Positions 21,556-43,141 of a stretch of DNA of 43,493 nucleotides are shown here, in pieces. How positions within the stretch are numbered: position 1 is the stretch's first letter; the number at the start of each line of letters is the position of its first letter. Below the pieces are notes generated by a model that was given only the letters and a program-made list of their open reading frames with translations, had not been told where the DNA came from and did no database searches. The position numbers and the translations under genes were made by a program. Source of the DNA: an uncultured Veillonellaceae bacterium (lineage in GTDB: Bacteria; Bacillota; Negativicutes; Selenomonadales; Selenomonadaceae). The DNA is taken from the NCBI GenBank assembly GCA_900315575.1, contig OMZR01000021.1, positions 1 to 43,493 of the forward strand, given 5' to 3'.

Positions 21556-22081
21556 GATGTTCCTCCACGCGGATCCGCCCGACGATATCGATGATGACGT
21601 CTTTCCCTTTCTGCTGCTCGCCCTCATAACAGACTTCGATCGTCGTAATATCCAGCGTGCTCCCATCCCGGCCAAAATCAATCGTATCCTTCGTCCGCGC
21701 CGCCACCGTGATCTGCGGTGGATAATGATGGATGACCAGATTCTGCCGTTGCTGCACGCCTTCTGGCGAAAATCCCAACCGGATGATACGATACTCATGA
21801 AGATTGTCCTCGAGATCCAGTTCCGGCTTTCCCAGACTCAGATAATCATCGCCGATACCCTCATTCGACGGAAAGACAATGGCGGTTCGCGTCATTTGCT
21901 GCAGCAAGCGGAGATTGCTCACGAGGCAGTCCGTCTCATATTGCACGAGCGCCGCATGATACCAGCCCACACAGCGAGGCGCGATAGCCGCTGCAGCAAA
22001 GCCGACGCCCGCGATGAGGAAAATCACATACATCATCGCAAAGCCTCGGCAATCCAGCCTCCGCCGCCCTGCCCGCTTCAA
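21545..22081 (-). CDS. Pseudopilin-like protein
   Basis: This 178-residue protein has a short basic leader ending CRG|FAMMYVIFLIAGVGFAAAAIAPR, so it has the pilin-like hydrophobic helix but tyrosine instead of glutamate at +5. The soluble part shows TIEVCYEGEQ and a basic end. It overlaps the prepilin peptidase gene by four bases. No closer family is recognised; it may be a GspH/FimT-like minor pseudopilin. Confidence 0.62.
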   Translation of the reverse strand: MKRAGRRRLDCRGFAMMYVIFLIAGVGFAAAAIAPRCVGWYHAALVQYETDCLVSNLRLLQQMTRTAIVFPSNEGIGDDYLSLGKPELDLEDNLHEYRIIRLGFSPEGVQQRQNLVIHHYPPQITVAARTKDTIDFGRDGSTLDITTIEVCYEGEQQKGKDVIIDIVGRIRVEEHHAK

Positions 22082-22551
22082 AAGAGCGCCTCATAAAAAG
22101 AAAGGATTTCCTCACCATAAAAGACGCCGATGGTACCCCCCACCGAAAGGCATGGGCCAAATGGGAGCTTCGCCTTCCTCCCGGATCCACGCAGGAGGAG
22201 GACGATGCCCCAGAGACTTCCGAGCAGAAAAGCGATAAAGAGCGCAGGCAGGATTCCTTCGAATCCCGTCCAGATCCCGAGTGCAGCCGCAAGCTTCACA
22301 TCACCGCCGCCCATGCCGCCATGGCTCAGCACGCGGACGACAAAGAGCACCCCGCCGCCAAGAATCGCGCCCGAAACTGCAGACAGCAGCGCCACCTGGC
22401 CGAAAAGCACCATGACGAGGCCAGCAGCAGCCAGCAAAGCAACCCACTTGTTGCGGAGAAAGCCCGTACGGATGTCATCAACCGACAGACGCAGCAGCAG
22501 GGCAAAGAACACAAAATCCAGAACGAGAAACAGCCCTTCGCCCATCCTCAT
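22078..22551 (-). CDS. pilD: Prepilin peptidase (A24 family), short form
   Basis: This membrane aspartyl protease removes prepilin leader peptides. The 157-residue protein lacks the N-terminal cysteine-containing methyltransferase domain of full PilD and consists of the A24 catalytic core. The first catalytic aspartate lies in RLSVDDIRTGFLRN and the second in GGMGGGDVKL. About six hydrophobic helices are visible. ATG at 22551 has GGAGG six bases upstream and overlaps the pilin stop by four bases. Whether N-methylation of pilins occurs in this organism is not visible from this gene. Confidence 0.88.
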   Translation of the reverse strand: MRMGEGLFLVLDFVFFALLLRLSVDDIRTGFLRNKWVALLAAAGLVMVLFGQVALLSAVSGAILGGGVLFVVRVLSHGGMGGGDVKLAAALGIWTGFEGILPALFIAFLLGSLWGIVLLLRGSGRKAKLPFGPCLSVGGTIGVFYGEEILSFYEALF

Positions 22552-22943
22552 TTCGTGCCTCCTGCCATGTAATCTTCGGCTGGATGCGCGTCGAGCGTGG
22601 CACGAATGTCCTTGTTGTCCGGCTTCGTCAGCTTGTAATCTCCATCCTTGACCTCTTCTGTACTGGAACCGCGGATGACCATGCTCCCTTTCGGCGGCTT
22701 GACGTTTTTGATATTCTGGATGTAATCGGAAAGATCATTGATGCCCGTCGGCTGCGTCCCATGCTCTGTCTCATACATCACGACAGCAGCATCGAGCGTC
22801 TGCAAGTCGGAGACAACGCGCTGCGTGCGGCTCACGGCCAAAACGTGCGCGGCCTTCGGCAGTGCCGCGGCTGCGACAACCCCAATAATAGAGACTGCCA
22901 GCAAAATCTCGACCAAGGAGAAGCCCTTTTCATCGTCTTTCAT
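22548..22943 (-). CDS. pilA: Type IV major pilin-like protein
   Basis: This 131-residue prepilin has the classic processing site EKG|FSLVEILLAVSIIGVVAAAALP, with glutamate at +5, and then the curved N-terminal helix. The C-terminal domain is short and has no cysteine pair. The layout resembles GspG or ComGC-like pilins. It is followed by the peptidase gene and preceded by pilC, so it is the likely main subunit of this system. Confidence 0.88.
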   Translation of the reverse strand: MKDDEKGFSLVEILLAVSIIGVVAAAALPKAAHVLAVSRTQRVVSDLQTLDAAVVMYETEHGTQPTGINDLSDYIQNIKNVKPPKGSMVIRGSSTEEVKDGDYKLTKPDNKDIRATLDAHPAEDYMAGGTK

Positions 22944-22958
22944 AAGATTTCGCCCCTT

Positions 22959-24164
22959 TCAGACAAACATCGTCATCATATCCATCCAAGGGAGTGCTAC
23001 AGCGGCGACACAGCCGCCGACGAGCGCAAAAATCACGAGATAGGCAGCGGGTTCCGCCATCGCCTGCAGACGTGCCGCCTGGTTCTCTGCCGCCTGCGCC
23101 GCATAGTCCGCGCCGCGTCCGAGCATGGATGGCAGGCAGCCGGCCAGCTCGCCCGTCCGCAGAAAATCCAGCAGGACATGCGGCAATGACGCTTCGCCAG
23201 CGAGCAGATCCGAAAGCGGAAATCCGTTCTGAATGCCATGCACCGCATTCGCCAGCACGCGCGCAATGGCACGATTGCCTGCAACAGCGGACGCTGCCGT
23301 CACTGCCTCATCAAGAGGAATACCGCAGGCCGTCAGCACCGAAAGAGCCCGATACGTCTTCATCCAGACGACTTCGCGCCGGAGCCTGCCAAACAGCGGG
23401 CCGAACAGCCTCCATCGGTCGATGCAAGCACGCACCTGCGGCCGTCGGAACAACAAGGAACATCCCGCCAGGGCGAAAACGACACTCAGCGCGATAGCTT
23501 CTGCATATTCCCGTGCAAATATCCCAAGCGTGAGCAGCAGCTGCGTCGGCCACGGAAGCTCCGCCTGCATGCTCAGAAAGAGATCCGAAAATGCCGGCAG
23601 CACAAAGCCGGTCAGGAACACTGCAATCGCCACGGTTTCCACAAAAAGAATCATCGGATACGCCAGCACGGTCTTCAGCTTTTCCCGTGCCCGTTGTTCC
23701 TCTTCCATCCATCCAGCGAGCTCCGCGACCATCTCCGGCAGGCGTCCCGCCTGCTCGCCAACGGCCACCATGCCAACTGCCACAGGAGAAAAAACATCCG
23801 TATGACGCTGCAAAGCATTCGAGAACGACTGGCCTTCGGCAATCCTCTGCTGAAGGCCACGCAAGAACGCCTGCCTGCGGCCTCCCTCTTCCCCCGCGAG
23901 AGCGCCGAGGCTCTCATGGAGCGACATGCCTGCCTGCAAGAGCACGGCAAGCTGCCGGAAGAACGGCCCCGCCTGCGACTTTGAAAATGGACGCTCCATC
24001 AACTGCGGCAAGCGCCATCGCCGATCCCGCTTTTTCTGCAGACGGGATACAAAGAGGCCGCGGCTCTTCATCTCGCGGACCGCCTGCGCCTCGTTTTCTG
24101 CCACGAGCTCGCCGATGGCCAGCGTCCCGTCCATCTGCCGCGCCCGATATGAAAAGACCGTCAT
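22959..24164 (-). CDS. pilC: Type IV pilus / type II secretion inner-membrane platform protein PilC
   Basis: The GspF/PilC family platform protein interacts with the assembly ATPases. The 401-residue protein starts with YRARQMDGTLAIGEL and contains two T2SSF domains (about 68-190 and 270-392), each followed by membrane segments. The FFRQLAVLLQAGMSL and ALSVLTACGIPLDEAV motifs mark their starts. It lies five bases after the pilT stop. Confidence 0.93.
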   Translation of the reverse strand: MTVFSYRARQMDGTLAIGELVAENEAQAVREMKSRGLFVSRLQKKRDRRWRLPQLMERPFSKSQAGPFFRQLAVLLQAGMSLHESLGALAGEEGGRRQAFLRGLQQRIAEGQSFSNALQRHTDVFSPVAVGMVAVGEQAGRLPEMVAELAGWMEEEQRAREKLKTVLAYPMILFVETVAIAVFLTGFVLPAFSDLFLSMQAELPWPTQLLLTLGIFAREYAEAIALSVVFALAGCSLLFRRPQVRACIDRWRLFGPLFGRLRREVVWMKTYRALSVLTACGIPLDEAVTAASAVAGNRAIARVLANAVHGIQNGFPLSDLLAGEASLPHVLLDFLRTGELAGCLPSMLGRGADYAAQAAENQAARLQAMAEPAAYLVIFALVGGCVAAVALPWMDMMTMFV

Positions 24165-24168
24165 CCAA

Positions 24169-25191
24169 TCACTCCTCCATGAGTTTCTGAACGCCCGCCT
24201 GCGTAATCACGCCAGATTGCAGCAGGCGCTGGCCCTCCTGTGCAAATGTCGTCATGCCGGCCTGCCTGCCAGACCGAAGTGCATTGGGAATCTGCGGATC
24301 CTCAGCCGCGCGGATCATATGACAGATGGCAGGCGTCCGAAGCAAAACTTCATAGACTGCCTGCCGCCCCTCCCGCACGCGGATCAGGCGCTCGGCGACG
24401 ATGGCCGTCAGCGAAGCTGCGAGTGCCGCCCGTATCGGCTGCTGTTCCTCTGCCGGAAAGAAATCAGCAAGCCGCTGCGGCGCCTCGGCCGCCGTCCGCG
24501 CATGGATCGTCGACAGCACGAGCGTCCCCGCCTCTGCCGCTGCGAGTGCCGCACGAATCGTCTCGCGATCACGCAGTTCGGAAACGAGCAGAACATCAGG
24601 ATCCTCGCGCAACGTGCTGCGAATGGCAGCATCAAATGTCGTGAAATCCCGTCCGAGCTCCCTCTGATGAAAGATGCTGCCTTCCTTCTGATACAGAAAT
24701 TCAACGGGGTCCTCAAGCGTCACGACATGCAGCGGCCGCTGCTCTGCCAGTGCCAGCAGCAACGCCGCAAGCGTCGTGCTCTTGCCCGATCCCACACGTC
24801 CCGTCATCAGGATCAGGCCGTGGTGCACCTTGGAAAGTCCCACGAGGCCCGCAGGCGCTCCAATCTCGTCAAACGTCGGAATGTGCTCGGGCAGCAGGCG
24901 GAACGCCAGCGCCTCCCTGCCATTCGCCAGATACGCATGGCCGCGCAGCCGCCGTCCCGCGAACGAAAGAGAGAAATCCACATCTTCCTTCGCGCGCTGG
25001 AGACGCCGCAAAAGCCCTGCCTGCTGTCCGAGCCATGCGCCAATCGAAGCAGCAGGCAGCCAGGCGGCCGGCACGAGACTTCCATCCTTCCGCAAGAACG
25101 CAGGCGCATCCGGCGTCAGATGCAGATCGGACGCTTCGCATTCCACCATGCAGCCGAGCAGCGCCTCGACCGTCATCACTTCAAGCTTCAC
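24169..25191 (-). CDS. pilT: Twitching-motility type ATPase PilT
   Basis: This 340-residue hexameric ATPase is expected to power pilus retraction. It shows Walker A GRVGSGKST (131-139), the Asp box TLEDPVEFLY, Walker B region LREDPDVLLVSELRD, and the His box STIHARTAAE. The usual G in VGE(M/L)RD is S here. Start assigned at GTG 25191, which overlaps pilB by 11 bases and has only a modest GAGG upstream; ATG at 25176 is the alternative. Presence of both pilB and pilT argues for a dynamic pilus rather than only secretion. Confidence 0.9.
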   Translation of the reverse strand: MKLEVMTVEALLGCMVECEASDLHLTPDAPAFLRKDGSLVPAAWLPAASIGAWLGQQAGLLRRLQRAKEDVDFSLSFAGRRLRGHAYLANGREALAFRLLPEHIPTFDEIGAPAGLVGLSKVHHGLILMTGRVGSGKSTTLAALLLALAEQRPLHVVTLEDPVEFLYQKEGSIFHQRELGRDFTTFDAAIRSTLREDPDVLLVSELRDRETIRAALAAAEAGTLVLSTIHARTAAEAPQRLADFFPAEEQQPIRAALAASLTAIVAERLIRVREGRQAVYEVLLRTPAICHMIRAAEDPQIPNALRSGRQAGMTTFAQEGQRLLQSGVITQAGVQKLMEE

Positions 25192-26452
25192 TGAGCATCC
25201 GCCTCACTTCCTCCCATGTCGTCTCGCCAGCGAGAACTTTTTCGCGGCCATCCTCCCGCATGGTCTGGAGCCCTGCTTTCTTCGCGAGTGCACGGAGCTC
25301 CTCGATTTCCACGCCATGCACGATTTCCTTCCTCATCTCATCCGTGAGCACGAGCACTTCCGCGAGCACCATGCGGCCGCGATACCCCGTCCCGTGGCAG
25401 GCAGGGCAGCCGCGGCCGCGATAGAGCGTCGTCCCGGCAGGAACGCCGAGGGCTTCCGCCTCTCCTGGATCCGCCTCATATGATTCACGGCAATCCGGAC
25501 AGATCCGTCGCACGAGCCGTTGTGCGATCACGCCGCGCAGCGTTGCTGCCAGAAGATAGGGCGGCAGGTGCATCTCGAGCAGGCGCAATACTGCGAGGCA
25601 TGCATCGTCTGCATGCAGCGTCGTGAGGACGCGATGCCCCGTCAGCGCCGCACGGAGCGCGACCTCTGCTGTTTCCTTGTCGCGCATTTCGCCGACGGCA
25701 AAAATTTCCGCATCGAGGCGCAGAACATGGCGGAACATCTCCGCAAACGTCTTCCCTGCTTCTTCACGGACAGGAATCTGCAGGACACCGGGCAGGAGGT
25801 ACTCCACGGGATCATCCAACGTCAGAATGCTTGTCTCCTGACGGTTCAGCTCCGAGAGTCCGGCATAGAGCGTCGTCGTCTTCCCCGCTCCCATCGGGCC
25901 GACCCAGGCCGTGATCCCCGACGGACTCTGCAGCAAGGTGCGGATTCTTGCCTCGTCATTTTCCGAGAATCCAAGTGCTCCCAGCTCCCAGACATGACCG
26001 TCGCGCGGCAGGAGGCGAAGGACAATTGCCTCCCCATTTACCGAAGACATCGTCGCAGCACGCACATCGACATCTCCGCCCTCCCGTGAAAATGTGAATC
26101 TCCCATCCTGCGGCTCGCGCGACTGGCTGACATCCATCTTGGCCAAAACTTTGATACATGATAAAAATACGGCATAAACCTTCTTGGGAAGTTCATGCCG
26201 TACTTGAAGAAGTCCGTCCAGGCGAATGCGGATACGCACGCTGGATGCCTGCGGTTCCACATGGATATCGCTCGCACCATCCTCCGCCGCCTCAGAAATG
26301 ACAGCATCGACGAGCGCTCTGACAGGAGAGACTCCGCTTGTCGTCATGCGCGCAGCAGCCCCGCCATGCATTTGCGCCTCCTGGCGGTCGATTTCACGGA
26401 GCACCTGCTGCACGAGATGATGAAATTCAACATTCTGCTGCCGCTCCGTCAT
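25181..26452 (-). CDS. pilB: Type IV pilus assembly ATPase PilB/GspE, short form
   Basis: This assembly motor has 423 residues, shorter than the roughly 560 of canonical PilB, because the N-terminal MshEN-type domains are absent. Visible motifs are GASDIHVEP, Walker A GPMGAGKT (185-192), TLDDPVEYLL, a degenerate Walker B region LRLDAEIFAVGEMRD, TTLHADDA and a zinc-binding tetracysteine motif (C318, C321, C349, C352). It is the first gene of the operon and has a near-consensus promoter. The lack of an MshEN domain would remove the usual site for c-di-GMP or PilM-type control. Confidence 0.92.
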   Translation of the reverse strand: MTERQQNVEFHHLVQQVLREIDRQEAQMHGGAAARMTTSGVSPVRALVDAVISEAAEDGASDIHVEPQASSVRIRIRLDGLLQVRHELPKKVYAVFLSCIKVLAKMDVSQSREPQDGRFTFSREGGDVDVRAATMSSVNGEAIVLRLLPRDGHVWELGALGFSENDEARIRTLLQSPSGITAWVGPMGAGKTTTLYAGLSELNRQETSILTLDDPVEYLLPGVLQIPVREEAGKTFAEMFRHVLRLDAEIFAVGEMRDKETAEVALRAALTGHRVLTTLHADDACLAVLRLLEMHLPPYLLAATLRGVIAQRLVRRICPDCRESYEADPGEAEALGVPAGTTLYRGRGCPACHGTGYRGRMVLAEVLVLTDEMRKEIVHGVEIEELRALAKKAGLQTMREDGREKVLAGETTWEEVRRMLSEA

Positions 26453-26650: not shown

Positions 26651-27304
26651 ATGGTTCTCTACCTTCTCGCAGCCATCCTCGTCGTGCTGCTGATTCTCTT
26701 GTACCGCTATCTGCCGAACAAGCGCATCTATGCCTGCTTCTGCGTCACGCTTGCTGTGCTCGGCGTCCTTTGCTACCTCTTTTTCCCGCGCACGTCGCAA
26801 AACGAGGCCATGACAGAGGAGCAGAAGTATGACATCCTCCAGCAGCAGCAGATTTTCGCGACATGGTACGCGGGCTATCAGAAAGATGTCAAAGACCTCG
26901 ACCACAACTGGCGCTGGTATCATCAGATTCTCGAGGATTTCAAGGAGGACAATATCAGCATTCAGACGGCCTACGTGCGTCTCAAGCAGCTCGAGGAAGA
27001 CGAAAAGGCGCTGACGGCCCGTATTGGTGCCAGCGCCCCGCCGCTCGAACTCCATGACAACTTCTACGATCTCACGGCCTCCATCGTCCAGAAGACGAAA
27101 TCCTATGCCGAGGCGCAGCAGAAAGCCATCACGCTGACGCGCGCCGCCAGCGATCCCCAGCGCATGCCGACCGACGACCAGGAAGAGCAGAACCGCCTGC
27201 TCCAGACCGTCATGGAGAAAGAATCCCCCGTCGGCCTCTTTACAGCAGAAGAGATCGCCGAAATCCGAAATGGATTGGCGATCCCTGATGAATTCGAACC
27301 TTGA
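26651..27304 (+). CDS. Membrane-anchored protein of unknown function
   Basis: This 217-residue protein has two hydrophobic N-terminal segments (about 2-20 and 28-46), then a helical, charged soluble part (LQQQQIFATWYAGYQKDVKDLDHNWRWYHQ...) and a C-terminal TAEEIAEIRNGLAI segment. AAAGGAG precedes the ATG. It is the only plus-strand gene in the window and stands alone with its own promoter and terminator. Its last about 20 codons have a 91%-identical DNA copy at 42301-42357. I do not recognise a family, and the divergent pil operon gives no firm clue. Confidence 0.85.
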   Translation: MVLYLLAAILVVLLILLYRYLPNKRIYACFCVTLAVLGVLCYLFFPRTSQNEAMTEEQKYDILQQQQIFATWYAGYQKDVKDLDHNWRWYHQILEDFKEDNISIQTAYVRLKQLEEDEKALTARIGASAPPLELHDNFYDLTASIVQKTKSYAEAQQKAITLTRAASDPQRMPTDDQEEQNRLLQTVMEKESPVGLFTAEEIAEIRNGLAIPDEFEP

Positions 27305-27317
27305 TTTTCAGCCTTCC

Positions 27318-27350
27318 GCACGAACCTCCACGGTTCGTGCTTATTTTTTC
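27318..27350 (+). terminator. Rho-independent terminator after the hypothetical gene
   Basis: The perfect 9-bp stem GCACGAACC / GGTTCGTGC with a 5-base loop is followed by TTATTTTTT. The T-run overlaps the stop codon of the convergent GH26 gene. The hairpin could also stop transcription from that side, although no T-run follows it on the minus strand. Confidence 0.85.
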
Positions 27351-30010
27351 ACTGCGCGCACATCATCAAAGAAGATATGGGAATCCACGTCTGCATCCCC
27401 GACCGTGTTGCAGTAAATCGCAAAATGCTGCACGGCGGATTTGTCGAACGTGCCGCCGTTCTTGCCTTGGAACTGCGCAAATGGCAGCGTCACGAGCTGC
27501 GGCGGCGTCGTCTTTGCGAGGCTCGTGAGATCGACCTCGAAATCCTCACCGTTCGAGTTCAGCTGGCAGATGAGCTTCTGCCCTCTGCCGTCCGGCGTCA
27601 CCCAGAACTGGACGGCGTCGTACGCAGACCAATCGACACCGCCGAGGCTCTTCACGATGCCGGCATAGCCCCCCTTGTTGATCTGATAGTGGAAATCGAG
27701 CCCCGTCTCGCCGCCTGCGTGCGTTGCCGCGAGCAGCGGCTCGACCGAGCAACCGGCACCACAGTTCGTCGAATACGCCGCCTTCAGCAGGCCGCCGTCG
27801 CCATAATAGCTCTCGAAGTCATCGACGAGCGCCGGATCTTTTGCAGGTTCCGGCATGTTGAACAGCACCATGACGCTGTCGGCCGTCTTGCCGTCGAGCT
27901 GGAGCTCTGCCTGGCCGACCGTCGTGCCCGCTGCTGCGAGCGCATCTGCCGTAATCTCGCCTTTCACGCTGCCTGCGCTATCTGGGACGGCCGGCAGCTT
28001 TGCGATGACAGAGCCGTCTTTTCGCTTGAGCACAAATTCCGCCGATTCGTACGAACCAGCGACACGGGCCCTGATGGTTTCCGGCTGGAGCACGCGCTCC
28101 ATGGAGCCCGGTGCTGTGAGATAGCCGCATTCCGCCGCTGCTGGCCGGACGGCTACGGAAAGTTTCGACAAATCCGGCGTCTGCCCCGCAAAGACCGACT
28201 GCGGCGCATTGTAGAACGAGATAAATTCATTTACCATCTCATGACCGCGCATCGGCGTCACGAGATAGGGCTGATCGAAGTTTCCTTCATTGAAATTCGA
28301 CCATGTCATGAAATATGCCATCTTGTGCGGCGCAATCGTCTTCATGGCCTCGTTGAACCAGTCAGGACGCTGGTTGCCCGTCTTTGCGAGCGCTCCGCCG
28401 CTCGTCCCGACGAGGATGCCTGTCTCCGTCACAGCTGCGAGCTTGTCATGCGCGTCTGCAAAGGATTCCACAGCCTTCATCGTTTCATCAAAGCTTTTCA
28501 TCCAGCCGTCATGCTTCTGCGGGTCGCGATGATAGGTATCGAATCCTGTAATGTCGATGAACGCATCCCCCGGATAGCGCGAGAGATAGTCGGCCGCATC
28601 AGCCACCGGGCCGCCCGGCGAGTACGCATAAAGAAGATTGTGCAACCCCTTGACATCGCGCAGATACTTCACGGTGTAACGGAAGAGATTCTTGTACTCG
28701 CTCGGCGTGCAGTGCGCCGCGCCCCACCAGAACCAGCTGCCGTTGTTTTCGTGGAACGGACGGAAGATCACGGGCACATGTTCTTTCTGCAAGATGCTGA
28801 GAAAATCTGCGACCATGTCGAGGTAACCGTCATAAACTGCGTTGAGGTCGCCGCCCGGCACGATGCGCTGCACGACGCTGCCGCTTGTGTTGTTCGGCGA
28901 GTAGCCTGTGTAATCATATTTTCCATCAATTTTCGGACGTTTCGCAACTTCTGCAAAATTCGGCATGTGGCACGACATCGTGAGGATGGCACCCTTTTTC
29001 GTGGCTGGCAGCACTAGGCGCGCAAGCTTCGTCGCATACGTCTCGCCATTTGCGCGCTCCGCCTCCGTGAGCTTGAGCTCGTTCCCCGTCAGCGCCAGGC
29101 CGTCCATGCCGACGACACCGGAGAAATCCTTCACGATATCATACGTATCCGACGCGCCGGGCAGTTTGCTGACCTTGCGGTTCATCTCATTCTGGTGGCC
29201 GTAGAGCACCTGATCGGATGCTGCAATCCCCTTCATATAAGCATAGACGCGCGCGGTCTCCGGCGTGGCATCCTTGTCCACGAGCGACACGGTCTGCGGC
29301 ACGGCGAGCTTTGCGAGTTCCACAGTCTGCTGCGGCTGGACGGCCGTCTTCACGTCCACATAACCATCGGCCACCTGCCCAGCTTCCGCGCGGAGCTTGC
29401 CAATGAAGAGGTCACCCTTGTAATCCGTATGGCTGCCGACAATGCTGACCATGAAGTACGTGAGCGGTGCTTCCTGCTTCGGGATGGGCACGCGCACATG
29501 CACAACCTTCCAGCCCTGCCCCGCATTTTCCGCCTTTTTCGTCTCAATGGCGACATCCGTATTGATGACTTCCTGGCCCTTCGCATCCTTTGCGTAGACC
29601 TTCGTCCGGAACTCGCCGCTCGTCATCTGCTTCGGATGGTAGTAGAAATCATAAGACACGACGTTCGCGCCCGCGAGATCGAGCGGCTGCTCCGCCGCCC
29701 TGCCATCCTCGAGCTTCACCTCGGACCAGCTTTCGTCCGCTTCCTGCGAAAAATCAACGCCGAGTCGTACGCAGCCGCCATGTTCGGACGAATGTTCGAT
29801 GACAGGATCTCCCTTGTAAGCCCACTTGCCGCCATATTTCCATCCATCGAGGCCTTCCTGGAACGTCCAGCTCACGCCCTGCGCTTCCGCGGCTTCGGTC
29901 TGTGCGATGACGATTGTTGGCATCATCTGCGGCAGTACGGCCGGGACGCCCAGCACGATGCCTGCCGACAACGTCAGCGAAACCGCCCGCCGCAATCTCT
30001 TCAGCTTCAT
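27341..30010 (-). CDS. Secreted modular beta-mannanase (GH26) with flanking carbohydrate-binding-like domains
   Basis: This 889-residue endo-beta-1,4-mannanase candidate has a signal peptide (about 1-37), a beta-sandwich region (about 45-210, starting GVSWTFQEGLDGWKYGG; CBM-like), and a GH26 catalytic domain (about 250-605). An Ig-like segment and a second CBM-like beta-sandwich (about 728-889, starting LVDDFESYYGDGG) follow. The acid/base is E421 in RPFHENNGSWFWWG and the nucleophile E529 in VTETG. No SLH or lipobox is visible, so it may be released or periplasmic. AAGGAG lies eight bases before the ATG. It has its own strong promoter, apart from the transporter operon upstream. Confidence 0.92.
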   Translation of the reverse strand: MKLKRLRRAVSLTLSAGIVLGVPAVLPQMMPTIVIAQTEAAEAQGVSWTFQEGLDGWKYGGKWAYKGDPVIEHSSEHGGCVRLGVDFSQEADESWSEVKLEDGRAAEQPLDLAGANVVSYDFYYHPKQMTSGEFRTKVYAKDAKGQEVINTDVAIETKKAENAGQGWKVVHVRVPIPKQEAPLTYFMVSIVGSHTDYKGDLFIGKLRAEAGQVADGYVDVKTAVQPQQTVELAKLAVPQTVSLVDKDATPETARVYAYMKGIAASDQVLYGHQNEMNRKVSKLPGASDTYDIVKDFSGVVGMDGLALTGNELKLTEAERANGETYATKLARLVLPATKKGAILTMSCHMPNFAEVAKRPKIDGKYDYTGYSPNNTSGSVVQRIVPGGDLNAVYDGYLDMVADFLSILQKEHVPVIFRPFHENNGSWFWWGAAHCTPSEYKNLFRYTVKYLRDVKGLHNLLYAYSPGGPVADAADYLSRYPGDAFIDITGFDTYHRDPQKHDGWMKSFDETMKAVESFADAHDKLAAVTETGILVGTSGGALAKTGNQRPDWFNEAMKTIAPHKMAYFMTWSNFNEGNFDQPYLVTPMRGHEMVNEFISFYNAPQSVFAGQTPDLSKLSVAVRPAAAECGYLTAPGSMERVLQPETIRARVAGSYESAEFVLKRKDGSVIAKLPAVPDSAGSVKGEITADALAAAGTTVGQAELQLDGKTADSVMVLFNMPEPAKDPALVDDFESYYGDGGLLKAAYSTNCGAGCSVEPLLAATHAGGETGLDFHYQINKGGYAGIVKSLGGVDWSAYDAVQFWVTPDGRGQKLICQLNSNGEDFEVDLTSLAKTTPPQLVTLPFAQFQGKNGGTFDKSAVQHFAIYCNTVGDADVDSHIFFDDVRAVKK

Positions 30011-30132: not shown

Positions 30133-31749
30133 TTAAAAACTCCACGCGATGCAGCTGTATACTTTCGCGCGGTCGCTGTGCACCGGATTCGTGATGGATT
30201 TGCCACGGCCGTATTTCAGACTGAACTGGCAGTTTGCCGTGAGATTGTAGAACATGCCGACTTCCCAGCCCTTCTGCCCCTGCCCGATGCCATCGCTGAG
30301 GTTCGTCTTCACGAGCGCGTCTGGTCCGAGATAGCGATAAGCAAGATAACAGCCGAACAGACCCGGACGGTCAGACGGGATGCCCGGGTTGCCGCGATAG
30401 CGGAGCTCGAGGTTCCATGCGTTGTCATGACCGTGCTGATTGCCGTGTGCATAGATGCCGTTGAGCATCCAGTTGTGGTCGATGCGGTAGTTCACGAGCG
30501 CTGCGCCGATATCGAGCCAGTCATGATCGTAGGCTGCCGAACGGAAATGGTACCAGCCGAGTGATCCGTCGAGCTTCTTGCTGTACGTATAATCCACGAC
30601 CGCGCCATAGTAATCCATGCGCTGCTTGTTGCCGCTGATGTTCCTGCGGTCGCCGCCGAGGTTGTCAACGTTTTCCTCTGTCTCCCCAAGATTCTTGTCG
30701 AAGTCGATGGAGCTGTAATCATAATCCCCGGATGCGCGGTACGCCTCCACCGTGCTGCGCTTGCTCGTGGGGACATAGCGCGTCTTGTCCGTCCAGTTGT
30801 TGTACGTCTGTGCCTGTCCTGCGCTCTTCACCCAGATTTTCTTCGCATCACCATCCGATATACCGAGTGCGCTCTTGAGTGCGGACTGCACGCCTGACGC
30901 CTGATCGGCGAGCCATCCTTCCGAGAAACCATCGATGTCCTTCACTTCTGCATCCATCGCCATGTCCCAGACTTTCGCATCGAGGCGGCCGCCGAAGACA
31001 TGCGTCGCGAACTTGCTCCCCCAATGCTCGAACTCGACGCCCTTGAGGTTGGCATCATTGACGAATCCATTCTGCACCCACGGCTGGAAGTCGCCGAATT
31101 TCAGCGTCTGCCCCGTCTTGCCGAGCGGACCTTCGACATAGATCTTGTCGAGGCGGAAGCCTGACGAGCGCGTCGAGCCGCCAATCCATTCTTCATCGTA
31201 TGCTTCTTCGTCATTCCACTTGCTCGCGCCCCACTTGTTATCGATGGCAAGATGCGCCGTAAAGCCGGAGCCCGGGACTTCGGCATCGGCATTGAGCCAG
31301 AATTCCTTCTCCCAGTACGGATCTGCCTTGTCTCCCGTCGGGCCTTTGTGCATATCGCGCATGTACTTCTGCGCAAAACCGCCACTCCACTTCACGTTGT
31401 CGCTGTGCTTCTCGAGATTCGCCACGCGGACGCCGAGGCTCGCGAGCTCGTCGCCAAACTCTGCTGCGAGCTTGTCGAGCTCTGCCTTGTCAGCCGCCGG
31501 GACCTCCTTCTTCGCCATGGCTTTCGCGACCATCTGCGCCATCTCGTAGCGCGTGATGCTACGCCCGCCTTGGAATGTCGCATCGCCATACCCTTCGATG
31601 ATGCCATCCTTCGCGAGCTGCGCGACAGCATCATAGGCCCAGTGATTCTCCGGCACGTCGCTGAATGGATTCTGAGCGGCAGACGCCGTCGATGAGAGTG
31701 CGAAGGTCATGATGGCAAGCGTGGTGAGAATACGTTTTCTTTTCTGCAT
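30133..31749 (-). CDS. Outer-membrane porin with N-terminal SLH domain
   Basis: This 538-residue protein has a signal peptide ending ASA (about residue 24) and one SLH domain (about 26-80; NPFSDVPENHWAYDAVAQL, GYGDATFQGGRSITRYEMA). A coiled-coil linker (about 84-115) and a long aromatic-rich beta-strand region with a C-terminal phenylalanine follow. In Negativicutes, SLH domains of such OmpM-like proteins bind polyamine-modified peptidoglycan and tether the outer membrane. Sitting between mannanase genes, this one is a candidate entry channel for manno-oligosaccharides, which is an inference. AAGGA lies upstream of the ATG. The 68 bases before it hold no clear promoter. Confidence 0.88.
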   Translation of the reverse strand: MQKRKRILTTLAIMTFALSSTASAAQNPFSDVPENHWAYDAVAQLAKDGIIEGYGDATFQGGRSITRYEMAQMVAKAMAKKEVPAADKAELDKLAAEFGDELASLGVRVANLEKHSDNVKWSGGFAQKYMRDMHKGPTGDKADPYWEKEFWLNADAEVPGSGFTAHLAIDNKWGASKWNDEEAYDEEWIGGSTRSSGFRLDKIYVEGPLGKTGQTLKFGDFQPWVQNGFVNDANLKGVEFEHWGSKFATHVFGGRLDAKVWDMAMDAEVKDIDGFSEGWLADQASGVQSALKSALGISDGDAKKIWVKSAGQAQTYNNWTDKTRYVPTSKRSTVEAYRASGDYDYSSIDFDKNLGETEENVDNLGGDRRNISGNKQRMDYYGAVVDYTYSKKLDGSLGWYHFRSAAYDHDWLDIGAALVNYRIDHNWMLNGIYAHGNQHGHDNAWNLELRYRGNPGIPSDRPGLFGCYLAYRYLGPDALVKTNLSDGIGQGQKGWEVGMFYNLTANCQFSLKYGRGKSITNPVHSDRAKVYSCIAWSF

Positions 31750-31817
31750 GCTGTTTCTTTCCTTTCTTTCCCCTTGTATGGAATCCCCGTTTTATATGTT
31801 TCTGTTTTTTTATGAAA

Positions 31818-33122
31818 TCAGGCATCCCTTCTTTCCCATGCTGCATAGTCCGCATTCTGCCCGGCAAAGATGCTGGCAGGATGGTTGTAGAAATCGATGA
31901 ACGCGTTGATCATTTCATGGCCGCGCGTTGCATCAACCATATAGGGCTGGTCGAAATTCGTCTCATCGAAATTCGACCATGTGAGAAAATACGCCATCTC
32001 ATGCGTCCGCATGACATCCATCGCATCGAGAAACCATGCATCATAGCCGTTGTGACGCTTTGCCATAGCGCTCTTCCCCACGAGCATCCCCGTCTCAGTG
32101 ACAGCCGCAACTTTGTGGTGCGCTCGGGCAAACTGCTCGACAATGCTGAGAACATCCTTGAACTCCTTTTCAAGGAAGCCATCGCCGCGCCGTGGATCCC
32201 GATGATACATGTCGAAGCCCGTGAGATCGACAAAGCGATCACCAGGGTATGTACGGCTGTAATCATCCTCGCTCCGCGTCTCTCCGCCGCCCGGCGAATA
32301 GGCGTAGAGCATGTTGTGCAGCCCCTTCCGCTGGAGATAGGCCTCCGTGTACTGGAAGAGCCGCCGGAACTCGTCCGGCGTGCAGTGGCCTGCGCCCCAC
32401 CAGAACCAGCTGCCCGTGTTTTCATGGAACGGGCGGAAGATCAACGGTACATCCGCCTGCTGGAGATGTCGGTCAAACGCTGTGACGAGGTCGAGATACC
32501 CTGTAAAGACCTCATTGAGATCGCCACCCGGCAGGATGCGGTGGACGACATTGCCGTCTGTATGATCCGGGGAGTAGCCACTGTAATCATATCTGCCGTC
32601 CCGATGTCTTTCCCGCTTCGCAACCTCGGCGAAATTCGGCATATGGCAGGAAAGCGTGACGATGGCACCTGCGCGGTCGGCCTTGACGGCCACGCGCGCG
32701 AGCTTCTCCGCGAGCGTGAGGCCGGATGCGCGCTCGCATTCCGTGAGATCGAGTTCGTACCCCGTCAACGCAAGACCATCCACGCCGACGACGGCAGGAT
32801 AATCGCCTGTGATATCATATGTGTCGGAATCGGTCTTCAGTTTTTTGCCGACTTTGCGATGCATGTCGTTCTGGTGGCCGTAAAGAATCCGATGGGTATG
32901 CGCGATGGCGCCGAGGTAGCGGAGCAGCGCCTTCGTCTTCGGTGTCGCCGCCTCATCTGCTGCCGTGACATCGGGTGCCTCAAGTTCTGCAAGGCAGACG
33001 CGCTTCTTCGAACGGACGTTCGCCACCTTCCTCACATAGCCGTCCCGGTCTGGCCGGACACGCGCCTCTGCAACATCCTCTTCCGCAAACACTGGTTCGA
33101 TCCAGCCTATGTTCGTTGCCAT
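31818..33122 (-). CDS. GH26 beta-mannanase without signal peptide
   Basis: This 434-residue enzyme is close to the GH26 domain of its 889-residue neighbour: RPFHENTGSWFWWG with acid/base E234, and VTETG with nucleophile E343. The N-terminus MATNIGWIEPVFAEED carries no signal peptide or membrane helix, and the upstream frame offers none, so the protein is probably cytoplasmic. That would fit cleavage of imported manno-oligosaccharides. The ATG at 33122 follows AAGGAGG by seven bases and begins two bases after the stop of the previous GH26, so the two are coupled. Confidence 0.9.
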   Translation of the reverse strand: MATNIGWIEPVFAEEDVAEARVRPDRDGYVRKVANVRSKKRVCLAELEAPDVTAADEAATPKTKALLRYLGAIAHTHRILYGHQNDMHRKVGKKLKTDSDTYDITGDYPAVVGVDGLALTGYELDLTECERASGLTLAEKLARVAVKADRAGAIVTLSCHMPNFAEVAKRERHRDGRYDYSGYSPDHTDGNVVHRILPGGDLNEVFTGYLDLVTAFDRHLQQADVPLIFRPFHENTGSWFWWGAGHCTPDEFRRLFQYTEAYLQRKGLHNMLYAYSPGGGETRSEDDYSRTYPGDRFVDLTGFDMYHRDPRRGDGFLEKEFKDVLSIVEQFARAHHKVAAVTETGMLVGKSAMAKRHNGYDAWFLDAMDVMRTHEMAYFLTWSNFDETNFDQPYMVDATRGHEMINAFIDFYNHPASIFAGQNADYAAWERRDA

Positions 33123-33124
33123 TC

Positions 33125-34543
33125 TCATTCCTCCTTTGTCGGATGAACCGAAAGGATATATCCATACGCCGCTTCTGCCGGCCGGACCGCGACATGCCAC
33201 GTGCCATAATCCGGAACCTGGCTGGCGAAGACAGAACTGCCAAGATTGTAGAAGTCCACGAATTCATTGACCATCTCGTGCCCGCGCGTGCGGCTTACCA
33301 TGTATGGCTGGTCAAAATCCGTTCGATTGTCATTCGACCACGTCATAAACCAGGCAACGGGATGGCGCTCAAGCACGCGTTCGACTTCGGAAAACCACGT
33401 TTTCCGCACGTTGCCCTGCTCCGCCATCGCATGCCCGTTTGCGAGGATGCCCGTCTCCGTGACGGCGAGGATCTTGTGATGCTCTTTCGAAAAGTCCCCG
33501 AGGACGTCGAGCGTCTTGTCGAGCGAAGCGAGAAATGCATCATCCGGCGCAGGATCGCGGTGATACATATCGACGCCGACGATGTCGACAAAGGCATCGC
33601 CCGGGTAGCGCTGCGCATACTCCGCCGCGCTCCGCACAGGGCCTCCGGGCGACCATGCATAGAGGAAATTATGGACGCCGCACGCAACGCGCAGATACTC
33701 GACGGTGTAGCGATAGAGGTTCTTGTACTGCGGTGCTGAGCAGCAGCCTGCGCCCCACCAGAACCAGTTGCCGTCGCACTCATGATAGAGACGCACGATG
33801 AGCGGGATGTCATCCTCTGCAAGACGATGCCCGAACGCCGCCATGCGGTCGAGATATTCGCGATAAACATCATTGAGGTCGCCGCCCGGCAGCACGCGGT
33901 TCATGACATCGCCTTCAAGGACGGGCGTCGTATATCCCGTATAATCCCAGTCTTTCTCTCCTTTCGCTCCTCTTCCGCGCTTTGCCACGACATCGAAGTT
34001 CGGCATATGCGCTGTAGCCGTGAAGATGACGCCCTTGTCTGCGCCGTTCTTCAAGATGCGCGCCATCTTTTCCTGGAGCGTAAGGCCCGCCGCTGCTTCC
34101 TCGGACGTGAGCTCGAAGTCGCCATGCTCGAGCGCCTGGAAATCGAGTCCCGCAATGGCCGGATAATCGTGCACGATATCATGCGTGTCCGACGGGTTCC
34201 CGTCCGCCATGCCCGCCTTGTGATGAAGGTCGTTCTGGTGGCCGTAGAGCACGAATTGCGACCGGCCGACGCCTGTGAGAAACGATGCCAGCGCCGCCGT
34301 CTTCGCTGTTGCCTGCGCATCGACGAGACGAACGGTGTTTGGCGCTCGCCCTTCGAGCACCTGCTTCGTGACGCGCGTCTGCGGCAGAATGGGTTCGACA
34401 AGCTCGACACTGCCATCTTCAATAGGCGCAGGATCGGCCGTACGAGCCGCAAGTTCGGCGAATTGCGGAACGAAGAGGAACGGGGTGGCAAGCGTCGCAG
34501 AAAGCGCCGTCCGCAGAAAGCGGCAGCGCTTTCCCCGCCTCAT
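33125..34543 (-). CDS. Exported GH26 beta-mannanase
   Basis: This 472-residue enzyme has a basic N-terminus and hydrophobic stretch ([19 protein letters not shown]), a likely signal peptide ending near residue 34. The GH26 domain is more divergent than its two neighbours: acid/base E255 lies in [14 protein letters not shown], and nucleophile E363 in VTETG. With no surface anchor visible, it is probably periplasmic. It starts with a four-base ATGA overlap on the ugpC-type gene, GGGAGGTG being upstream. The three GH26 genes look like products of duplication followed by changes in localisation. Confidence 0.9.
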
Positions 34544-35664
34544 GCTGCACCTCCCATCTTCCCATACAGCAAGCTCCTGCCATCCCTTTTGCGGAACGCA
34601 TACATGCGATCCGTCGTGAAGACGAGGTCGATGGGATCACCCGGATGATATTCCTTGCCCGATGGCATGCTCGCAACGAGGAATTCCCGGCCGCAACGCA
34701 CATGCAGCAGCGTCTCTGCACCGAGCAGTTCGACGACCTCGACCGTGCCACGCGCGGCGATGTCGATGTTCTCCGCGAGCAGCATCGCAGCGTCATGGAT
34801 GGCTTCGGGACGAATACCGAAAACGATTTCCTTTTCGCCCGCCGCACGCAGGACATCCGCCTGCGGTTGCGGCACCTCGATGAGAATGCTCTCGCTGGAA
34901 GCAAAGAGGCGTCCCTCGTTCTCCATGAGTTCCACGGGAAAGAAATTCATGGGCGGATTGCCGATGAAGCCCGCGACGAACTGGTTGACGGGATGCTGGT
35001 AAAGCTCCATCGGCGTGCCGCACTGCTGGATGACGCCGTCATTCATGACGACGATGCGGTCGCCGAGCGTCATGGCCTCCGTCTGGTCGTGCGTGACATA
35101 GATCATCGTCGTCTGGAGGCTCTGGTGGAGCCGTGCGATTTCCGTGCGCATGGAGACGCGGAGCTTGGCATCGAGGTTCGAGAGTGGCTCGTCGAGCAGA
35201 AACACCGAGGGATTCCGCACGAGTGCGCGCCCCATTGCAACGCGCTGGCGCTGGCCGCCGGAGAGTTCCTTCGGCTTGCGCTCGAGCAGCGATTCGAGCT
35301 GCAGCACGCGGGCTGCCTCCCCGACTTTCTTTCGGATCTCGTCCTTTGACAGATGGCGGAGCTTCAGGCTGAACGCCATGTTCTCATAAACGGTCATATG
35401 CGGATAGAGCGCATAGTTCTGGAACACCATCGCGATATCACGGTCTTTCGGCGAAACATCGTTGACGCGGCGGCCGCCGATCAGGAGGTCGCCGCCCGTG
35501 ATGTCCTCAAGCCCCGCAATCATGCGCAGCGTCGTCGACTTGCCGCAGCCAGACGGCCCGACGAACACCATGAATTCTTTGTCGCGGATATCGAGATCGA
35601 AATCCTTGACAATCTCGACGTCCCCGTAGCTTTTCTTGATATGGCTGAGCTTCACTTCTGCCAT
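34540..35664 (-). CDS. ugpC: ABC transporter ATPase, UgpC/MsmK type
   Basis: This 374-residue energising subunit of carbohydrate ABC importers has Walker [10 protein letters not shown] (36-44), Q-loop [10 protein letters not shown], signature [17 protein letters not shown], and Walker [15 protein letters not shown]-terminal OB-fold regulatory domain (about 240-374, GIRPEAIHD) also matches the group. UgpC/MsmK proteins often serve several importers. Here it lies within the operon with its two permeases, so at least this transporter is its partner. It overlaps the GH36 gene by 13 bases and has AAAGGAG upstream. Confidence 0.93.
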
Positions 35665-37934
35665 GAATCTTCTCCTTTCTCGCCGACAGCGTGCAGATAC
35701 CAGCCGAACGACTGGCTGTCGCCCATGAGAATCGGCAGCATAACGCCGGCATGCATGAGCTCGTCGCCGCCGAACACCCGGCCATCCGGCCCCTTCTCGC
35801 TCCAGGCACTCGGCACGCCTGAAAAATGCTCTTTCGCTGACGCGATAACGCAGTCAATTTGATATCGAAGCTCGGGTGCAAGCCCTGAGAGATGCAGGAA
35901 GCGCAGTCCGGGATTCGGACGCGCGAGCGGCTGGACATACGTCAGGAACGCCGTGCGCCGGTCTTCAGAAACCACCATCCAGGCACTCGGCGCTCCATGA
36001 TGCTCCAGCACGAGGATGCGATAGAGATCGCCCTGCTGCAGGAGCGGGCGCATTTTCTTGAACATCGCGACCTGCTTTCGGACTTCTTCACATTCTTCGT
36101 CTGTGAAATGTGTAATGTCGAGCTCATAACCGAACGCGCCCTGCATGGCGACGAGGCCGCGCGTCGCAAGCGGCACGTCACGGCCCGCCTGGTTGCTCGG
36201 ATTCACGGAAACGTGCGCGCCCATCGTGCTGGAGGGATAAATGAGGCTCGTGCCGTATTGGATGGAGAGCCGCTCGACGGCATCGAGGTCGTCGCTCGTC
36301 CACGTCTGCGGCATGTAATAGAGCATGCCGGGGTCGAAGCGGCCGCCGCCGCCCGAACAGCTTTCAAACAGCACGTCTGGAAAGCGCGTGCAGAGCTCCT
36401 CGAGCACGGCGTAGAGGCCGAGGATATAACGGTGCATGGTCTCCTGCTGCCGTGTCGGCGGAAGCATTTTGGAATATGCCTCCGTCATGTGGCGGTTCAT
36501 GTCCCATTTCACATAGCGGATGGGAGCACTTGTCAATATGCGGCTCACGCTCTCGATGACATAGGACTGCACATCCTCGCGCACGAGGTCGAGCACGAGC
36601 TGCCCGCGTCCTTCTGACGCTTCGCGTCCCGGCACGCCGAGCGCCCAATCGGGATGCTTCTGATAGAGCTCGCTGTCGCGCGAAATCATCTCCGGCTCGA
36701 ACCAGAGGCCGAACGAAAGCCCCTGCTTTTCGGCATATTCCGCAATCGGCCGGATGCCGTTCGGCAGCTTCCGATGATCGACGAACCAGTCCCCCAGCGA
36801 TGAATCGTCGTTATCGCGATGACCGAACCAGCCATCATCGAGCACCATGAGCTCGATGCCGAGCGCTTTCGCGCGGTCGATGAGGGCAAAGAGCTTCTTT
36901 TCATCGAAATCGAAGAACGTCGCTTCCCAGTTATTGACGAGCACGGGCCGCACGCGGTCGCGCCAGTGGCCGCGGCAGAGGTGCTTGCGGAAGAGATGAT
37001 GGAACGTGCGCGACATCACACCGAGCCCTTCACCGCTGTAGACAAGCACTGCCTCCGGCGTCTCGAACGCCTCCCCAGGCGCGATCTGCCACGAAAAATC
37101 AAACGGATTCAGCCCGATGGCCATGCGCGTGATGTCGAACTGGTCCGGTTCGGCAAATGCCTGGAACGAGCCGCTATAGATGAGGCTCATGGCATACACC
37201 TCGCCATGCCGTTCCTCCGTGCCGGGTGACAGCAGCGCTAGGAATGGCTGCTCCTGATGGCTGCTCGCACCGCGCCGGCTTTCGACGACATGGCGGTAAT
37301 GCCCGAGCGGCCGCCGCTCCGGGATGCGCTCGCGCGCATGCGCACCAGGGAGATACAGCACATCCCATGTACTGACATCGCCGAGATCGACGCAGGCACT
37401 CATGGCATGCGTGATGCGGACGGCAGCGATGCCGTGATTTTCCATCCGCACGCTCCGCAGAATGGCATCGCTGTCCTCGAGGATGCTGTATGTCAGCACG
37501 GCATCGAGATGGAGTTTTTCATCCCGCAGGACAATCGTGAGATTTTCCGCCTGGCTCTCCCCTGCATAGATGGAGGGCAAGCCATGAATGCCGCGCTTCC
37601 CCTGCGCGATGCAATGCGACTGGTAGCGGAAATCCGTGATGCGCGAGCCGTCTGCCTGAAGAACGCAGATGGCAGGCTCGCGGAAATCCGTATTGCCGTA
37701 GGCTGGAAATTCCTGTGCTGTCGTATCGAGGGAGAAATCACGGTTGCCGCAGACAGGATTCGCCGAGAACGAGCGATCCATGCCCGGTATCGTGCTTGCG
37801 CCGTCGAAGCACTCGACGCGCGCTCCCCAATAGAGATGGCGGAGCCAGCCGCCCGGCAGGATGTCCATGACATAGCTCGCGTGCGCTGTCTGGATATGGA
37901 ATTGTTTTTTCTTTTCATCAAATGAAATCGGCAT
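35652..37934 (-). CDS. Alpha-galactosidase (GH36)
   Basis: This 760-residue enzyme removes alpha-1,6-galactose from galactomannan oligosaccharides or raffinose-type sugars. GH36 motifs are present: [10 protein letters not shown], the nucleophile aspartate D478 in YVKWDMNRH, the [14 protein letters not shown] glycine loop, and the acid/base D548 in [13 protein letters not shown]. It has no signal peptide, so it acts in the cytoplasm on imported sugars. Its place in the mannanase operon argues for side-chain removal from galactomannan. Confidence 0.94.
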
Positions 37935-37948
37935 GATATACTATGCTC

Positions 37949-38779
37949 CTAGTTTTTCGAACCGGTGCCTGCGACACCCTGGATGAACTGCTTCTGGAAG
38001 AGGACGAAGAGGATGAGCATCGGCCAGATGGCAATCATCGAGCCTGCCATGAGCTGCGGGAAATTCGTCGAATACTGTCCCTGCAGCGAAGCAAGGCCGG
38101 ATGCGAGCGGCATCTTGTCAAGCGATGTATTGACGATGAGCGGCCACATGAGGTCCTTCCACGCGAAGAGAGCCGTAAAGATGGAAAGCGCGATGAGCCC
38201 CGAACGCGTCAGCGGCAGCATGACGTGCCAGAAAATCTGCCAGCGGCTGCAACCATCAAGCACGGCCGCTTCCTCGAGCTCTTTCGGGATGCCGAGGAAG
38301 AACTGCCGCAAGAGGAACGTGCCAAACGCACTGACAATACCCGGCAGCACGAGCGCGAACAGCGAATCGACCGCACCGAGCCGCGCGACAATCTCATACT
38401 GCGGAATCAGGAACAGCTGCCCTGGAATCATCATCGTGACGAGCACGAGGCCGAAGAAGAAGTTCCGCCCCGGAAACTCGATGCGCGCAAACGCATAGGC
38501 CGCCGTCGCGCTGAAAAAGACCGAGCCAATCACGCGGAAGAGGATCATGCCGAACGTATTCGCATAGAACGCTGCAAACGGCAGGCTGCTCCAGACGTCT
38601 GCGTAGTTCGACCATTGGAGCGTCTCCGGCCAGAGCGTCGGCGGCACCATCGTCGATTCTGCCAGCGTCTTGAGGGACGTGATGACCATCCAGAGAAACG
38701 GCACGAGCATCGTGACGGCACCGACGCAGAGCGCCACATGGACAGAGAGATGTTTTTTCGTTGATGTTTTGAACTGCAT
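37949..38779 (-). CDS. Carbohydrate ABC transporter permease (MalG type)
   Basis: This 276-residue inner-membrane protein has six predicted helices and the EAA loop ELEEAAVLDGCSRWQIFWHVMLPL. The N-terminus (FKTSTKKHLSVHVALCVGAVTMLVPFLWM) and the PGTQxx-type periplasmic segment fit the CUT1 MalG/UgpE family. GGAGG precedes the ATG. It pairs with the MalF-type permease immediately upstream. Confidence 0.93.
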   Translation of the reverse strand: MQFKTSTKKHLSVHVALCVGAVTMLVPFLWMVITSLKTLAESTMVPPTLWPETLQWSNYADVWSSLPFAAFYANTFGMILFRVIGSVFFSATAAYAFARIEFPGRNFFFGLVLVTMMIPGQLFLIPQYEIVARLGAVDSLFALVLPGIVSAFGTFLLRQFFLGIPKELEEAAVLDGCSRWQIFWHVMLPLTRSGLIALSIFTALFAWKDLMWPLIVNTSLDKMPLASGLASLQGQYSTNFPQLMAGSMIAIWPMLILFVLFQKQFIQGVAGTGSKN

Positions 38780-38792
38780 GACGACGCCTCCT

Positions 38793-39674
38793 TTATTCGT
38801 AATGCACCCAGCGCTTCTGCAACTTCATCTGAATCTCTGTGATGATGAGCGTGATGACGAGCAGCAGCATGACGATGGCCGCGCCATAGCTCCGATCGCC
38901 CATGAGGAACGACTGCTTGTAGAAAAGGTACACGAGCGACTGCGTCGAAGCCATCGCCGTGTTCGACGGCTCGATCATCATGAAGATGAAATCAAAGACC
39001 TGCAGGCCGCCGATGACGGATGTCACGACGACGAAGAACAGCGTCGGCGAAATCATCGGCAGCGTCACATGGAAGAATTTCTGCACCGGGCCTGCGCCGT
39101 CCATCTCTGCTGCTTCATAAAACGTTTTGGGGATCTCCTGGAGTCCTGCCAGGAGCAGCACCATGTTGTAGCCGACCATCGTCCAGACACCGACGATGAC
39201 AATGGAAATCATCGCCATCCGCGGATCCGTCAGCCAATGGACGGCGCCAATGCCGAACATGGAAAGCAGATAATTGATCAGACCAGCATCTGCGTTATAC
39301 AACCAGCGCCAGACCATCGCAACCGCTGCCGGTGCCGAAACGACCGGCAGAAAATAAATCGTGCGGTAGAGCCCGCGCCCGCGAATCTTCTCATTGAGCA
39401 GCACGGCGACAACAAGAGAAAGGAATACGCCGATCACGACGGAAAGCACCGTATAGGCAAGCGTATTGGCGACGGCCTGCCAGACTTCCGGATCCGCGAT
39501 CAGCCGCACGTAGTTGTCGAGGCCGATCCATTTGTAGATGCCGAACCCCTTGCTCTCCGTGAAGCTCAGATAGCAGCTCTTGAAGAGCGGATAGATATTG
39601 AGGATCAGAACGCCGAGAACAGTCGGAGCCACCATCGCATAGGCGAACACCCAATCTTTTTTTCCTGCATTCAC
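38793..39674 (-). CDS. Carbohydrate ABC transporter permease (MalF type)
   Basis: This 293-residue permease of the CUT1 family has six predicted helices, with the EAA loop KTFYEAAEMDGAGPVQKFFHVTLP. The start is GTG at 39674 (MNAGKKDWVFAYAM), with AAGGA about ten bases upstream; a GTG at 39683 forms a GTGA overlap with the binding-protein stop but is too close to that site. It forms the heterodimeric channel with the next gene. Confidence 0.92.
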   Translation of the reverse strand: MNAGKKDWVFAYAMVAPTVLGVLILNIYPLFKSCYLSFTESKGFGIYKWIGLDNYVRLIADPEVWQAVANTLAYTVLSVVIGVFLSLVVAVLLNEKIRGRGLYRTIYFLPVVSAPAAVAMVWRWLYNADAGLINYLLSMFGIGAVHWLTDPRMAMISIVIVGVWTMVGYNMVLLLAGLQEIPKTFYEAAEMDGAGPVQKFFHVTLPMISPTLFFVVVTSVIGGLQVFDFIFMMIEPSNTAMASTQSLVYLFYKQSFLMGDRSYGAAIVMLLLVITLIITEIQMKLQKRWVHYE

Positions 39675-39679
39675 AAAAA

Positions 39680-41009: not shown

Positions 41010-41038
41010 AATATAGCATGTTTAGTAAAATCTGTCAA
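41010..41038 (-). promoter_or_regulatory. Promoter of the mannan transport/degradation operon
   Basis: On the minus strand, a consensus TTGACA (41033-41038) and TATATT (41010-41015) are separated by 17 bases, about 60 bases before the binding-protein gene. Such a strong promoter needs a repressor, and an operator lies within the spacer. Confidence 0.88.
41019..41031. promoter_or_regulatory. LacI-type operator in the operon promoter (TGTTTAGTAAAAT)
   Basis: The 13-mer has a palindromic core, TTTAGTAAA, and lies between the -35 and -10 elements. The same 13 bases occur in the promoter of the adjacent LacI-family gene (42253-42265, reverse orientation). A repressor bound here would block RNA polymerase directly. 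Confidence 0.75.
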
Positions 41039-41136: not shown

Positions 41137-42281
<1,145 letters not shown>

Positions 42282-42290
42282 AAAATCGCG

Positions 42291-42373
42291 ATCCCCCCCT
42301 CGGCCTCTTGACAGCAGAAAGGATCGCCGAAATCCAAAATGGACTGGCGATCCCTGAAGCTGGTAATGAATGA
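42291..42373 (+). pseudogene. Fragment resembling the 3' end of the 26651-27304 gene
   Basis: In the plus frame this reads LGLLTAERIAEIQNGLAIPEAGNE and a stop, close to the VGLFTAEEIAEIRNGLAIPDEFEP end of the unknown gene at 26651. By hand alignment, 52 of 57 bases (42301-42357 with 27232-27288) are identical, with no start codon or upstream coding part. It contains the inverted repeat GGATCGCC / GGCGATCC (42320-42327 and 42346-42353). It may be a gene remnant or a dispersed hairpin element; on the minus strand it also lies just past the gntR stop. Confidence 0.7.
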
Positions 42374-43106: not shown

Positions 43107-43141
43107 GCACGTACCTTCTTTCGGATTCAATATCAACCCCC

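Follow-up and report, generated by a model that had tools for sequence, protein, structure and literature searches.

Why a gene for an SLH-porin lies among mannanase genes is the question raised by the window, as we term the 43,493-nucleotide stretch of DNA analyzed here, which belongs to the 3.16-Mb, Selenomonas-type genome of a rumen bacterium (G000). OmpM proteins have been treated as tethers and general porins (PMC10628300, PMC5491611, PMC5007114), and PMC5491611 asks why several OmpM copies exist. The sequence-only reading had proposed that this copy may instead be expressed with the mannan operon and would then be a dedicated oligosaccharide channel. Our analyses indicated that it is probably an OmpM-type, peptidoglycan-tethered and presumably trimeric porin that was recruited into, and specialized for, a galacto(gluco)mannan uptake operon. 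Dedication to a locus was strongly supported and proved broader than had been proposed, extending to clades linked to GH53 and X25 genes. In the open-access literature searched we found no paper joining SLH-porins with polysaccharide loci.

The porin and its locus

The minus strand of the locus reads LacI, SBP, permease, permease, GH36, MsmK, GH26a, GH26b, porin and GH26-CBM27-CBM11 (Table 1), confirming that the porin gene lies between two GH26 genes of the same strand. The genes are packed as in an operon, overlapping or nearly touching; the start codon of GH26b, for example, shares bases with the stop codon of GH26a (ATGA). GH26b has no evident signal peptide, in contrast to the CBM-bearing GH26 and to GH26a, which suggests that it is an intracellular mannanase.

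Table 1. Positions of features of the mannan locus and of its porin in the window.
Feature	Position	Strand	Basis
64-nt direct repeat (91%), left and right copies	27225-27288; 42294-42357		Flanks LacI-to-GH26 block
Secreted GH26 with CBM27 and CBM11	27341-30010	-	Pfam
SLH-porin, 538 aa, mannan-linked clade	30133-31749	-	ORF, Pfam, OmpM1 match, trees
Beta-barrel, about residues 117-538, C-terminal Phe	30136-31401	-	OmpM1 profile alignment
Expanded loop, residues 261-378, 118 aa	30616-30969	-	Alignment
Coiled-coil stalk, about residues 85-116	31402-31497	-	OmpM1 alignment
SLH domain, residues 28-71	31537-31668	-	Pfam PF00395, E 8.5e-12
Putative signal peptide, about residues 1-24	31678-31749	-	MQKRKRILTTLAIMTFALSSTASA, by eye
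GH26b-porin gap, 68 nt, RBS-like AAAGGAAAG	31750-31817	-	Promoter scan, comparison with relative
GH26b, signal peptide not seen	31818-33128	-	Pfam and sequence
GH26a	33125-34543	-	Pfam
MsmK/MalK-type ABC ATPase	34540-35664	-	Pfam
GH36 alpha-galactosidase	35652-37934	-	Pfam
ABC sugar permease 2	37949-38779	-	Pfam
ABC sugar permease 1	38793-39683	-	Position between SBP and permease 2, conserved in L026 and L103 (no Pfam basis)
SBP, sugar-binding lipoprotein	39680-40951	-	Pfam SBP_bac_1; LAGC lipobox by eye
Operator-like element TTTTACTAAACA inside SBP promoter	41019-41030	-	Promoter/motif scan
LacI-family regulator	41137-42240	-	Pfam
GntR/UTRA regulator of adjoining GH1-PTS module	42396-43136	-	Pfam and locus comparison

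The window porin has the two marks of an OmpM-type SLH-porin, an N-terminal SLH domain after a signal peptide and a C-terminal barrel homologous to that of OmpM1. A single-sequence search matched V. parvula OmpM1 (8bys/8bym) over the SLH domain, the stalk and the first strands. In addition, a family profile of 21 relatives matched 8bys with an E value of 1.9e-45 over residues 2-419 of the 428 in the OmpM1 chain; because this match spans nearly the whole chain, the barrel of the window porin is homologous too. Sixteen barrel strands were counted by eye on the alignments. The SLH domain is predicted to hold polyaminated peptidoglycan. The succession of signal peptide, SLH domain, coiled-coil stalk and C-terminal barrel is that of OmpM1 (V. 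parvula; PDB 8bym, 8bys, 8byt; PMC10628300) and of S. ruminantium Mep45.

Pfam gave only the SLH domain and a sub-threshold Porin_5 match (residues 334-524) and did not place the protein in the LamB or OprB families. The window porin and the cyanobacterial SLH-OprB porins (Som) have an SLH-plus-porin plan in common, but the NCBIfam model por_somb matched the SLH part only, below its cut-off, and no OprB match was found in this genome. NCBIfam had no name for the window porin, nor for two of the GH26 proteins. An AlphaFold2 model of the porin, based on a shallow alignment of four homologues, reached a pLDDT of 31.7 and was discarded.

A second mannan-clade porin gene (L017, 4933-6275; G000 C47:46932-48274, plus strand) is located 15 kb from the first and adjoins PTS/GH1 genes. 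Its frame, open in relatives, is broken near the 3' end with N bases nearby, and the break is possibly an assembly error.

Phylogeny, linkage and gene order

A tree was calculated for 103 SLH-porin genes from 12 Selenomonadaceae genomes, and a copy was counted as linked when a GH26 gene was no more than 10 kb away. The tree contained a mannan-linked clade of 24 genes (SH-aLRT 100), a housekeeping OmpM clade of 45 genes, whose members are short and often in tandem, and other groups. All 16 GH26-linked copies were inside the 24-member clade, with 0/79 outside it (Fisher 3e-13) and 0/45 among the housekeeping OmpM copies. A tree of the barrels only kept the mannan and housekeeping clades apart (support of 98/92 and 95/97, respectively), indicating that their separation does not depend on the SLH end, and in that tree the window porin did not group with the tandem or major housekeeping OmpM copies. 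The phylogenetic check suggested by the sequence-only reading was thereby answered in favor of a separate, GH26-linked clade. Most of the eight remaining clade members are likewise in mannan-type settings: three are 12-18 kb from a GH26 gene on the same contig, one (G004) is near a GH26 remnant, and several adjoin GntR, GH1, PTS, CE2 or GDSL genes or are on short contigs.

The linkage was also found in a held-out set, for which 189 genomes were scanned with a clade profile (A3) and members from genomes absent from the tree were counted. Eleven of these 13 members were beside GH26. The two exceptions were beside GntR, one of them (G055, not G054) with GH1 and PTS genes as well. Of the several SLH matches in each of these 11 held-out genomes, the GH26-neighboring copy matched the window porin best. 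Genes are not independent data points, and part of the linkage is inherited; as several of the genomes are closely related, the counts overstate independence. GH26 genes are also present in genus g6, G053 and G188, where a linked porin was not found at the thresholds used; GH26 genes thus need not have one beside them.

Two weaker matches (L033 and L038) were rejected as porins because their SLH domains belong to trimeric autotransporter-like proteins, of Acidaminococcus and Veillonella, in which the SLH is at the C-terminal end. L034 was not a porin either and was taken out of the alignment.

SLH-porins are numerous, with about 8-20 homologous matches per genome, and some would be expected to neighbor mannanase genes; the window porin could in principle be a housekeeping copy that came to lie there by chance or hitch-hiking. 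We find this explanation scarcely credible. It is already contradicted by the trees, the linkage counts and the held-out scan, in which housekeeping OmpM copies were never near GH26 whereas 16/24 clade members and most held-out members were, in several gene orders.

The association of GH26 and porin (REARRANGEMENT) survives at least five gene orders. The porin is inside the operon in G000 and G006, whereas in G184 (C33) tandem porins are divergent from SBP-permease-permease-GH36-MsmK-GH26. In G150, G151 and G184 (C88), GDSL and CE2 esterase genes follow tandem porins. A PTS-GH1-GH26 arrangement is found in the last two orders, with the porin divergent from it (G165 and L176) or following it in line, between two GntR genes (G164 and L179). 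At L102, L105 and L106, tandem mannan-clade porins are followed by GDSL and CE2 esterase genes; these loci are an acetyl-mannan variant, and the porins of each of their tandem pairs represent two sister lineages.

The block from LacI to GH26 is flanked by a direct repeat, the left copy of which forms the 3' end of a gene of 217 aa, located beside GntR in G006 and G003. In these two genomes the repeat is present once, at the end of that gene, and in G006 the mannan operon is on the opposite side of the gene. The whole block, with the porin inside, is thus at different places in two congeners. Based on the single repeat in G006 and G003 and the position of the operon in G006, the 15-kb block most likely moved or was inserted as a unit, porin included.

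Promoters and operator-like elements

The totals of the promoter scan in the window were about those expected from shuffles, not above, so the promoter calls given here rely on position, match quality and conservation. Neither a promoter nor a terminator was found before the porin in the GH26b-porin gap, and in a 94%-identical relative nothing promoter-like is kept there, which bears out the earlier remark that the gene has no clear promoter of its own. The porin is presumably co-transcribed with the mannan operon in this organism. Against the preferred reading of a porin recruited into the operon, the downstream GH26-CBM27-CBM11 gene has a promoter-like site of its own (TCGACA-17-TATAAT, 30096-30068, minus strand), the -35 and -10 of which are conserved in the relative.

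A promoter-like site before the SBP gene (TTGACA-17-TATATT, 41038-41010, minus strand) contains the operator-like element, and the same 12-mer is present at 42254-42265 in the promoter of the LacI gene (42281-42253, minus strand). In G184, the intergenic region common to the porin pair and the divergent SBP-GH36-GH26 operon has three operator-like sites, each with at most one mismatch from the element in the window, and TTAACTAAACA is inside the promoter on the porin side, TTGACA-N17-TATCAT. These shared operator-type sites are the best evidence that porin and operon may be controlled alike. Because neither the region before the window porin itself nor loci of the GH1-PTS type yielded an operator-like site, shared LacI control is argued for the SBP promoter of the window and for G184 only.

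Porin features, proposed substrates and other glycans

In alignments, the mannan clade differed from OmpM mainly in one expanded loop (about 100 vs 18 residues), with median lengths of 99.5 in subclade B, 35 in subclade A and 18 in housekeeping OmpM. Going by the strand count, the long loop would be L4. A second loop (window porin residues 177-196) has 20 residues vs 4. The clade has about 50 conserved residues that are uncommon in OmpM, including W146, W279, R324, Q438, D477 and Q508. Concerning a possible aromatic slide in the pore, there are 11.9 Trp per barrel in the mannan clade vs 8.0 in OmpM, partly through length, and two of the clade-conserved residues (W146 and W279) are Trp.

Other SLH-porins of G000 adjoin genes for other glycans. 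One (C77, L022) adjoins a GH53 galactanase, a second (C122, L021) has a GH13 enzyme with PTS on one side and an X25 pullulanase on the other, a third (C60, L024) adjoins GH9 and a fourth (C146, L023) a PTS EIIC gene. When GH53 and X25 linkage was tested over ten genomes, all members of the nine-member clade of the GH53-side porin were beside GH53 (0/94 elsewhere), and 9/9 in the clade of the pullulanase-side porin were beside the X25 pullulanase (1/94 elsewhere). The GH9 linkage was isolated (two cases). As the GH53 and X25 clades are each glycan-linked, the window porin is one case of a family-wide pattern.

These data bear on the view that the window porin is a non-selective OmpM-type porin that raises total outer membrane permeability, and tethers the membrane, on mannan, with no sugar preference. 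Its domain plan and homologous barrel are those of the general porin OmpM1, and VpOmpM1 of Veillonella, which passes monosaccharides and not disaccharides, is a non-specific porin (PMC10628300). We nevertheless consider this view unlikely. OmpM1 is abundant and excludes disaccharides, while the window porin belongs to a separate clade with fixed clade-specific residues, is encoded in a sugar operon and has one loop that is about 100 residues longer; in addition, different clades for different glycans would not be needed by a permeability booster.

Since OmpM1 excludes disaccharides, oligosaccharides plausibly need another channel. The genome has only two TonB-dependent receptors, together on contig C102 and outside these loci. 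Given the size limit of OmpM1, the lack of an OprB match and the location of the TonB receptors, a dedicated SLH-porin per glycan would be the simplest explanation. Against a dedicated channel, small oligosaccharides may be able to pass through a general OmpM; PMC10628300 cites liposome swelling work on Mep45 of S. ruminantium.

The expansion is in one predicted extracellular loop, and Pfam revealed no SusD-like or other surface-binding gene in the mannan locus. Both observations would suit a protein that acts mainly in surface glycan binding or enzyme docking, its large loop capturing mannan or holding the secreted GH26, with transport secondary. We judge this quite improbable, as subclade A is in the same kind of loci with a shorter loop (about 35 residues) and the GH26 bears its own CBMs.

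We therefore return to the dedicated channel as the preferred explanation. The window porin would best be read as serving (galacto/gluco)manno-oligosaccharides. The CBM-bearing GH26 would cut mannan, and the porin, presumably located in the outer membrane and with a preference for its substrate, would admit galactosylated manno-oligosaccharides across that membrane. The SBP lipoprotein and ABC transporter would then import the oligosaccharides, GH36 and an intracellular GH26 would complete their breakdown, and the LacI regulator would control the operon.

In Proteobacteria, LamB, ScrY, RafY and chitoporin are outer-membrane channels encoded with the matching sugar operon. The clade of the window porin is similarly encoded with its cognate sugar operon across genomes; the comparison concerns how the channels would work, as no sequence relation was seen, and to our knowledge the proteobacterial channels are without an SLH tether. 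A likeness to SusC/SusD of Bacteroidota is that there would be one outer membrane importer per polysaccharide locus, but SusC is TonB-dependent and the only two such receptors of this genome are elsewhere.

On balance, we lean toward the view that Selenomonadaceae SLH-porins radiated into channels dedicated to different glycans, with a separate lineage for each kind of polysaccharide locus (mannan, galactan and starch, and perhaps also cellulose and PTS sugars). If this is correct, outer membrane tethering and polymer-specific uptake would be carried out by the same proteins, the set of tethers would shift with diet, and the retention of so many OmpM copies by diderm Firmicutes would be explained. 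The linkage of clade to glycan offers a concrete answer to the copy-number question, and one that is open to testing for each gene in turn. A further implication is TonB-independent, SusCD-free uptake of plant polysaccharide fragments by abundant rumen Firmicutes.

Neighboring the mannan block (22078-26452) are genes for two T2SSE ATPases, a T2SSF protein, a prepilin and a prepilin peptidase (Type IV pilus/type II secretion), through which the GH26 enzymes might be exported.
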